Part shown: positions 61,755 to 64,000 of the stretch, piece by piece
How positions within the stretch are numbered: position 1 is the first letter of the stretch
Layout: each line of letters begins with the position of its first letter
Source: Verrucomicrobiaceae bacterium
GTDB lineage: Bacteria > Verrucomicrobiota > Verrucomicrobiia > Verrucomicrobiales > Verrucomicrobiaceae
Assembly: GCA_027489965.1 (NCBI GenBank)
Contig: JAIXZA010000162.1
Coordinates: 186,001-250,000 of the forward strand
Length of the DNA: 64,000 nt
Direction of reading: 5' to 3'
The notes under the pieces: model-generated
Told to the model about the DNA's origin: nothing
Databases searched by the model: none
The model's input: the letters and a program-made list of their open reading frames with translations, nothing else
Translations under genes and position numbers: made by a program

Positions 61755-62912
61755 TTATCCGCGTTTTAAGCCTGCTACCAGCTTCTCGCCAGCTGCACGG
61801 AGGGTCTCCTCTTTTTTGGCAAAGTGGAAGCGGATATAGCGGTGCTCAGGCTCGCGAAAGAAGCTGCTGCCTGGCACACCTGTGATACCGACTTCGCGGG
61901 TCATCCACTCTGCGGCCTCCGTATCCTTTTTGAAACCTAGGCTGGAGATGTCTAGCAGCGTGTAATAGGCTCCCTGCGGCTCGGTGAATGGTAAGCCGGT
62001 TTGGCGCAGGTAATCGAGAAAGAGGTCCCGCTTGTCATCATATTCACGCTGAAGGTCTGTGTAGTAGCTGTCTGGGAACTCCAGAGCGGTGACGGCAGCC
62101 TCCTGCAGTGGCGCCGCAGCACCAACGGTCAGGAAATCATGGACCTTGCGTGCACGGGCAATCAGGTTTTCTGGAGCAATGACGTGCCCAAGTCGCCAGC
62201 CCGTGATTGAATAAGTCTTCGAAAGCGACCCACAGCTCAGTGTCCGCTCCCACATGCCTGGCAGCGTGGCAAAATAAGTGTGCTCATGGGGCGCATACAC
62301 AATGTGCTCATACACCTCATCCATCAGCACAAACGCATCATATTCCTCAGCTAGTCCCGCAATGTAGAGCAGCTCGTCTCGCGTGAAAACCTTGCCGCTC
62401 GGGTTGGCTGGATTGCAGATGACGATGGCCTTCGCCCCACCAGCAAAAGCGCGGCGCAGCTCTTCACGATCAAAGGTGAACTCTGGTGCGTGAAGCGGCA
62501 CATGTACTGGGATAGCACCCGTCAGGATCGCATCAGCCGCGTAGTTTTCATAAAAGGGCGAAAAGACGATCACCTTGTCACCCGGATCGCAGGCCGTCAT
62601 CATCGAGACCATCATCGCCTCTGTGCTGCCGCAAGTGACGACGAGATGACGATCAGGATCAATCTCCAGTCCCGTGAAGCGCTGATGCTTTTTAGCCAAA
62701 GCCTGGCGAAAACGCGGCGCGCCCCAAGTCACCGCATACTGATGATACGGACCACGAATCGCTACTGCCAGCGCATCAATGAGCGCTTCTGGCGGATTAA
62801 AGTCAGGAAACCCCTGAGCCAGATTGATCGAACCATGACGGTTCGAAAGACGTGTCATCTCGCGAATGACAGATTCAGTGAAAACTTCGAGTCGGCGGGC
62901 TGGCTGAGGCAT
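61755..62912 (-). CDS. Class I/II pyridoxal-phosphate aminotransferase
   Basis: SINLAQGFPDFNPPEALIDAL; NPANPSGKVFTRDEL; DEVYEHIVY; CGSLSKTYSITGWRLGH. Confidence 0.94.
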   Translation of the reverse strand: MPQPARRLEVFTESVIREMTRLSNRHGSINLAQGFPDFNPPEALIDALAVAIRGPYHQYAVTWGAPRFRQALAKKHQRFTGLEIDPDRHLVVTCGSTEAMMVSMMTACDPGDKVIVFSPFYENYAADAILTGAIPVHVPLHAPEFTFDREELRRAFAGGAKAIVICNPANPSGKVFTRDELLYIAGLAEEYDAFVLMDEVYEHIVYAPHEHTYFATLPGMWERTLSCGSLSKTYSITGWRLGHVIAPENLIARARKVHDFLTVGAAAPLQEAAVTALEFPDSYYTDLQREYDDKRDLFLDYLRQTGLPFTEPQGAYYTLLDISSLGFKKDTEAAEWMTREVGITGVPGSSFFREPEHRYIRFHFAKKEETLRAAGEKLVAGLKRG

Positions 62913-62924
62913 AGTGGATTCCTT

Positions 62925-62996
62925 TTTAAAACAGGATTTCAGGAATAACAGGATTGAAGTTTGAACTTTTCTTCAGGTGGGCCAAAAAGACTAGGT
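62925..62996. repeat. Direct repeat, left copy (72 bp)
   Basis: TTTAAAACAGGAT + TTCAGGAATAACAGGAT + TGAAGTTTGAACTTTTCTTCAGGTGGGCCAAAAAGACTAGGT. Confidence 0.9.
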
Positions 62997-63010
62997 TCGG
63001 CGGAGACCTG

Positions 63011-63412
63011 TCAAAGCTGTTCACCGGCATCTAGCAATTCCTGCCGTAATTCGACTCGCTCATCACTGTTCATTTCCAGGAGCCAAACCGTGGTTCTGCC
63101 AATCGCCGTCTTACCAACGATCCTGGCTCCTAGATGTTCAAAGCTCTCTTGCCAATCGTCTGTGCGCGGATTGAACAAGCGCTCCAACTGATTCGAATCT
63201 GGATCAATGCCCGCCAGATTGGTTCCTTTATAGACATTACAATTGAAGCAAGCTAGGGCGAGGTTACTTAGCTCACTGAGGCCTCCATGAAACTGCGCGA
63301 TGATGTGCTCGACATGAAATTTAACAAGAGGCTCATGCTGTTGCCGAAGTCCGCAATATTCACAACGATAGTTAGCGCGCTCACGCACCAGATGCTTCGT
63401 CTCTGCCTTCAT
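63011..63412 (-). CDS. HNH endonuclease
   Basis: RANYRCEYCGLRQQHEPLVKFHVEHIIAQFHGGLSELSNLALACFNCNVYKGTNLAGIDP. Confidence 0.93.
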   Translation of the reverse strand: MKAETKHLVRERANYRCEYCGLRQQHEPLVKFHVEHIIAQFHGGLSELSNLALACFNCNVYKGTNLAGIDPDSNQLERLFNPRTDDWQESFEHLGARIVGKTAIGRTTVWLLEMNSDERVELRQELLDAGEQL

Positions 63413-63675
63413 TTGGCTTGACCGAGCTGGCGAAGATGACGGCGGGCCTTCGCTTGCAGCAAAGAAATCACAGCAATGGCATTTGCGTAACTTAAGTATT
63501 GCCGTTGCTCTTCAGCGGACAATAGGCCCTCTCGTGACCTATCGGCAAGATCCTCAATGTAGGCCTGAGTTTCATCATCCGCACGCAGCTCGACCAGGGC
63601 CTTGGCTGCATGCTCATCCAGAGAATCAGAAAATGGCGTTAACAAGCGGTCAAGAAGGCCGGTCGAGGTATTCAT
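63409..63675 (-). CDS. Small helical protein coupled to the HNH endonuclease
   Basis: 88 aa, ATGA 4-nt overlap with the HNH start; QAYIEDLADRSREGLLSAEEQRQYLSYANAIAVISLLQAKARRHL. Confidence 0.75.
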   Translation of the reverse strand: MNTSTGLLDRLLTPFSDSLDEHAAKALVELRADDETQAYIEDLADRSREGLLSAEEQRQYLSYANAIAVISLLQAKARRHLRQLGQAK

Positions 63676-63757
63676 GGCACAGAATGTAACTGGTTGATTG
63701 CTCTTGGCAATCCCACCTTAAGTCTGAATTTAAGGCGGTGGGTTCCGATGCAATCCA

Positions 63758-63812
63758 TTTAAAACAGGATTGAAGTTTGAACTTTTCTTCAGGTGGGCCA
63801 AAAAGATTAGGT
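63758..63812. repeat. Direct repeat, right copy (55 bp; lacks 17 bp of the left copy)
   Basis: TTTAAAACAGGATTGAAGTTTGAACTTTTCTTCAGGTGGGCCAAAAAGATTAGGT; one substitution relative to the left copy. Confidence 0.9.
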
Positions 63813-63814
63813 CC

Positions 63815-64000
63815 ATGCAGCGCCTTCCTATTTCAGCCATTCTCAGTGCCGTCTTTGCTTTTGGCTTCTGGGGTCTGTTGCCGATTTACTGGAAGCAACT
63901 CGGCCATCTCGGCTCCGACGTTGCCGTGGCGCAGAGGGTGATTTGGACGCTCCTGGTAGCTACTCTTTTACTCCTGTGGAAGGGCGAGACTCGGTCCTGG
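63815..64000 (+). CDS. rarD: RarD-like EamA transporter, N-terminal part (runs off the window's right edge)
   Basis: MQRLPISAILSAVFAFGFWGLLPIYWKQLGHLGSDVAVAQRVIWTLLVATLLLLWKGETRSW. Confidence 0.85.
   Translation, partial: MQRLPISAILSAVFAFGFWGLLPIYWKQLGHLGSDVAVAQRVIWTLLVATLLLLWKGETRSW

Follow-up and report, generated by a model that had tools for sequence, protein, structure and literature searches.

Insertion of a two-gene HNH nuclease cassette with a long target duplication between divergent genes of a Verrucomicrobiaceae bacterium

We analyzed a 64-kb stretch of DNA (the window) from a Verrucomicrobiaceae bacterium (genome G000) and found a cassette of two small genes between two copies of an intergenic spacer. 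Very probably, a mobile nuclease module of two genes, which encode an 88-amino-acid protein (p88) and a PtuB-like HNH protein, was recently inserted here with a long duplication of its target. The insertion duplicated 55-72 bp of its target and left the neighboring genes intact; a related genome has the empty site; similar insertions recur at other sites, with duplications of 25-395 bp; and both genes are under purifying selection. The features of the site are:

61755..62912, minus strand: flanking aminotransferase gene (class I/II), intact, with its original upstream spacer kept
62925..62996, no strand: left copy of the duplicated aminotransferase/rarD spacer, 72 bp, matching the empty-site spacer of the related genome G003 except at 3 bases that are common to the right copy
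62997..63757, minus strand: inserted segment of 761 bp, between the copies in G000 and missing from G003 (locus L006)
63011..63412, minus strand: HNH nuclease gene, 133 amino acids, with a zinc-binding HNH domain (PF01844, 8e-11) and a C-terminal region resembling PtuB
63409..63675, minus strand: 88-amino-acid partner gene (p88), predicted to be all-helical, with an ATGA overlap with the HNH start and without a family match
63676..63757, minus strand: leader of the pair inside the insert, in which two stem-loops are weakly predicted (z = -2.4)
63758..63812, no strand: right copy of the duplicated spacer, 55 bp, with an apparent 17-bp loss by slippage between AACAGGATT micro-repeats
63815..64000, plus strand, continuing beyond the window end: flanking rarD-like (EamA transporter) gene, named by eye, intact, with its original upstream spacer kept

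The two copies share a 50-bp core (62947-62996 and 63763-63812) that is identical at 49 of 50 positions, at a spacing of 816 bp. A further 14-bp identity, TTTAAAACAGGATT (62925-62938 and 63758-63771), would follow from a 17-bp loss in the right copy, between two AACAGGATT micro-repeats of the 72-bp unit. The left copy is separated from the HNH stop codon by 14 bp on one side and from the aminotransferase start by 12 bp on the other, and 2 bp separate the right copy from the ATG of the rarD-like gene (63815). A sequence-only reading of this DNA had described a repeat of 55-72 bp on either side of the pair, with one mismatch in 50 bp, lying about 12 bp from the aminotransferase start and 2 bp from the rarD start, and the coordinates bear this out. 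Because nearly the entire spacer was duplicated, the aminotransferase and rarD genes each retain their own upstream region. The spacer repeat is the sole direct repeat of its kind within the window, and when we sampled about 400 kb of G000 plus the window, the repeats that we found were mostly inside repetitive proteins. In a search of the 6.5-Mb assembly (183 contigs), the spacer repeat had just two matches, both at the cassette, which disposes of the idea that it might be a genome-wide repeat.

The sequence-only reading also proposed that the entry of a cassette of about 760 bp had duplicated an ancestral aminotransferase/rarD spacer. This is strongly supported by G003 (L006), where a single copy is continuous through both junctions. 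The aminotransferase of G003 is 95% identical and is separated from rarD by an 86-bp spacer, with one copy of the repeat and without the cassette. In a base-by-base alignment, the G003 spacer matches the left junction as far as TAGGT, and it matches the right junction from AACAGGATTG onward. At three bases the left and right copies agree with each other against G003, and a single base (and the 17-bp deletion) distinguishes one copy from the other, so the duplication most likely occurred in the G000 lineage. It is less likely that the empty site in G003 arose by loss of the cassette through recombination between the repeats. A more distant relative, G005 (L009), lacks the cassette as well, and its spacer has diverged; thus, the pair is not carried at this locus by all relatives.

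The HNH and p88 genes are the only genes in the insert and, as had been noted before, there is no transposase or integrase in the cassette. We also found no terminal inverted repeats and no short fixed target duplication, so this is not a classical DNA transposon or insertion sequence. As in type II toxin-antitoxin systems, the two small genes are co-directional and overlapping, with the putative antitoxin first. The 88-amino-acid protein does not belong to any family in Pfam, PADLOC, or PHROGs, and its match in NCBIfam is weak (E = 0.003, 16 bits versus a cut-off of 750). Its predicted structure has four helices; a fold search found no solved relative, and comparisons to known antitoxins gave no match by sequence or by fold. 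In some relatives of p88, the N terminus is extended by a segment that, by eye, looks like the DNA-binding segment of ribbon-helix-helix antitoxins, with no hit in Pfam.

The catalytic residues of the HNH protein (H36, N50, and N59) and its zinc cysteines are invariant or nearly so in the family. In structural comparisons, the model of the HNH protein (best pLDDT 85; the five models vary from 47 to 85) is similar to PtuB from Septu and retron complexes (Foldseek probability 1.00, TMq of about 0.6, most of the 133 amino acids covered), which agrees with a PtuB-type match from PADLOC (E = 1e-11). Based on this model, the fold is nearest to defense effectors and not to homing enzymes. In Septu and in retrons, PtuB works with the ATPase PtuA. 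The HNH domain and the C-terminal region align to the PtuB effectors of Septu and of retron Ec78/Eco7 over most of the 133 amino acids, but our protein is much shorter and is paired with an 88-amino-acid helical protein; neither a PtuA ATPase nor a retron reverse transcriptase is found beside the pair, whose neighbors are the aminotransferase and rarD-like genes. Nor is there a methyltransferase with the HNH nuclease of the window, so the pair is not a restriction-modification unit. Between orthologs, dN/dS is about 0.02-0.19 for the HNH and p88 genes alike, which implies that both genes are under purifying selection. G000 also encodes a second, distant HNH pair (G000:C22:27156-27518; L004 1486-2125, minus strand), which has 41% identity and a different upstream partner of 82 amino acids, and around which we did not detect flanking repeats.

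Relatives of the HNH protein, mostly 40-60% identical, are found in 36 of the 48 genomes of the genus, with up to 21 in a genome, and in 6 of 289 genomes sampled across the phylum, where the threshold was stricter than in the genus search. A single-protein scan of the genome contigs gave 7 loci. In nearly all of the loci that we fetched, a relative of p88 is directly upstream of the HNH gene. Members of the HNH family also occur in Cyanobacteria, Planctomycetes, and others. On the pSYLB and pSYLA plasmids of Synechocystis PCC 6714 (L181/L182) and on plasmids of Calothrix brevissima (L183/L184), p88-like/HNH pairs adjoin a site-specific integrase; these cyanobacterial pairs are in blocks of 1.3-3.6 kb that are common to the plasmids, which is a different vehicle. 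In an uncultured Saprospiraceae (L177 1773-5812), p88-like/HNH and Uma2-like genes are in tandem, in whole-cassette repeats that are about 80% identical.

Together with the window, the 60 fetched loci give 61 cassettes at about 49 distinct sites. We compared the upstream and downstream flanks of each cassette (threshold of at least 30 bits), and did the same for pseudo-cassettes placed in the same DNA. Direct repeats abut 6 of the 60 cassettes versus 6 of 585 pseudo-cassettes (p ~ 3e-4 if related genomes are treated as independent, or 1e-3 after merging the two hemD cassettes described below, which are a shared insertion). A seventh cassette (L130) has a 395-bp, 76% repeat further out. About 53 of the 60 have no detectable duplication, which requires either that duplications decay with age or that there is a second route of entry. 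As a separate observation, in eight loci (L096, L097, L098, L099, L100, L103, L105, and L113) the HNH pair is just upstream of one murC/mpl-like gene, and most of the upstream flanks differ, so this is a recurrent landing site.

Across the sites with repeats, the one in the window included, the duplicated pieces (25-395 bp) are gene 5' ends, gene 3' ends, or spacers. Among 30 retrieved hemD loci, only G039 and G013 have the p88-HNH pair; in both, the 3' end of hemD (about 97 bp) is repeated after the cassette, and the cassette boundaries are identical. In the other 28 loci, a single copy is present without the cassette. What lies beyond the second copy in G013 resembles the flank after hemD in the empty G042. 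At the 3' end of hisC, the site is filled in G013 and empty in G002, G021, and G039; filled and empty loci can be aligned on either side of the cassette, and the flanks meet again across about 28 bp (a duplication of about 28-30 bp). The 5' end of another gene, gD, is duplicated over 49 bp (96%). G007 shows the pre-insertion junction between a vapBC-like module and gD, without the HNH pair, while in G058 this vapBC-gD junction appears as the second copy, followed by the HNH pair and then by a third gD start. This arrangement implies that cassettes can enter one after another. Other duplications comprise the 5' part of a CHASE2 gene (395 bp, L130), 25 bp at the 5' end of a Tat-signal-like gene, and, in another genus of the family (L283), about 100 bp within the end of a gene, where one copy has an internal deletion.

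Toxin-antitoxin and Uma2 modules use some of the same sites. In two loci (L104 and L130), a toxin-antitoxin module without an HNH gene lies between serial copies of the target repeat; in L130, the CHASE2 start has two other copies, with an addiction-module-like antitoxin between them. Elsewhere, the hisC 3' position is occupied by an antitoxin/PIN pair (G012) or by a Uma2-family gene (G042, G023, and G001), with the families assigned by eye; at the hisC site, we did not detect a target duplication around these modules. In G000, we examined 20 PIN loci and 3 Uma2 loci and found flanking repeats at two PIN loci only, L264 (21 bp) and L266 (51 bp). In L266 (G000:C14), the PIN-toxin module lies between 1412-1462 and 2380-2430, an 88% repeat that is possibly dispersed. 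Because just 2 of 20 PIN loci have repeats, one of them possibly dispersed, we do not claim duplication for toxin-antitoxin modules in general. The two loci in which serial copies of one target repeat enclose a toxin-antitoxin module imply that duplication need not be specific to HNH. Toxin-antitoxin and Uma2 modules share landing sites with p88-HNH; it is less certain that a common mechanism brings them there. In another locus (L120 3466-5862, G046:C39), several repeats of 85-265 bp interleave toxin-antitoxin-like and HNH cassettes, and look like either a dispersed repeat or serial insertions.

We propose that the target would be opened by two nicks on opposite strands, or by a break with long staggered ends. 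The cassette DNA would be joined into the opened target, and fill-in of the single-stranded ends would produce the two copies. Only those insertions whose duplication leaves the neighboring genes intact would survive, which may be why the copies are gene 5' ends, gene 3' ends, or whole spacers. Once inserted, the pair would be retained as a toxin/antitoxin-like or defense module, with a nuclease effector that is restrained by the small upstream partner. By analogy, the pair is about as likely as not to be kept for such behavior.

The sequence-only reading instead saw the HNH protein and its partner as candidates for the mobility function or for homing. If so, p88 might be a specificity or regulatory partner that directs the HNH protein, which would nick gene borders at widely offset positions and insert the pair there, giving duplications of 25-400 bp; the pair would then be a new kind of self-mobile element that lacks a transposase. 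HNH proteins do include nickases, the catalytic residues are conserved, and the pair is the sole coding content of the insert. Also, the repeats tightly abut the pair at unrelated targets, and are 4-23 bp from the HNH stop codon in most cases. However, toxin-antitoxin or Uma2 modules occupy several of the sites instead, and at L104 and L130 a toxin-antitoxin module without HNH sits between serial copies of the repeat. Furthermore, no conserved cassette ends or target motif could be seen (by eye only), and the fold is closer to defense effectors than to homing enzymes. We consider self-movement unlikely, and it is more likely that the pair is toxin-like or defense-like cargo than that HNH drives the movement.

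The repeats might instead have arisen by single-crossover (plasmid-like) integration or by tandem duplication, with other sequence lost later and the selected pair left behind. Such events yield direct repeats of any length, and the cyanobacterial relatives are indeed on plasmids beside a site-specific integrase. However, at independent sites the p88-HNH pair fills the whole gap between the copies, with no plasmid remnant, and it is unlikely that erosion would time and again leave just this pair. We see only a slim chance that this explanation is correct.

Slimmer still is the chance that this is a homing cassette, in which the HNH protein cleaves the empty allele and the cassette is copied in by homologous recombination. 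As with free-standing HNH homing endonucleases, the HNH gene is small and intergenic, and the identical hemD boundaries in G013 and G039 could reflect allelic transfer. However, homing proper does not leave a target duplication, whereas here the target is duplicated; there is also a partner gene, and the cassettes are at about 49 different, unrelated sites and are mostly 40-60% identical to the window's. Finally, chance or an assembly artifact has a negligible probability, as the draft state of the assembly (183 contigs) is the sole point in its favor, while the copies are 49/50 identical at a distance of 816 bp and are distinguished by one base and a 17-bp deletion, and there is an empty counterpart in another assembly.

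The closest precedent for a long-duplication insertion is that of restriction-modification genes, which insert with long (about 100 bp), variable target duplications and without a linked mobile element (Nobusato et al. 2000 and Furuta et al. 2010, as cited in PMC3874152 and PMC1643837). Both cases feature a nuclease unit that is suspected to be a selfish module, no linked mobile element, a long and variable duplication, and an empty site in a relative. In contrast to that precedent, our cassette encodes a PtuB-like HNH protein and a small helical partner with no methyltransferase, is from another phylum, and has been inserted serially next to toxin-antitoxin modules. A ParE/ParD-type toxin-antitoxin module of Microcystis aeruginosa PCC 7806 is fenced by 152-bp direct repeats (PMC7935541). 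This module likewise has two overlapping small genes between long direct repeats and adjoins an intact gene, but it is of the ParE/ParD type, its repeats contain inverted repeats, and the passages that describe it mention no empty site. In the literature that we searched, which leaves out most subscription journals, we found no paper on the p88-HNH pair or its mobility.

In 2000, restriction-modification genes were described as inserting with a long target duplication, and the mechanism is still unsettled in the literature that we searched. Here, one genus and one protein family offer several events of different ages, with their empty sites; at two loci, nuclease and toxin-antitoxin cassettes seem to have inserted successively at one position. 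With this system, one can ask if the duplication is the work of the nuclease or if the nuclease is only a passenger. Our results also give a first functional handle on an unannotated gene pair, as mobile, conserved, and PtuB-like, and a way into the poorly understood movement of selfish nuclease genes without a transposase.
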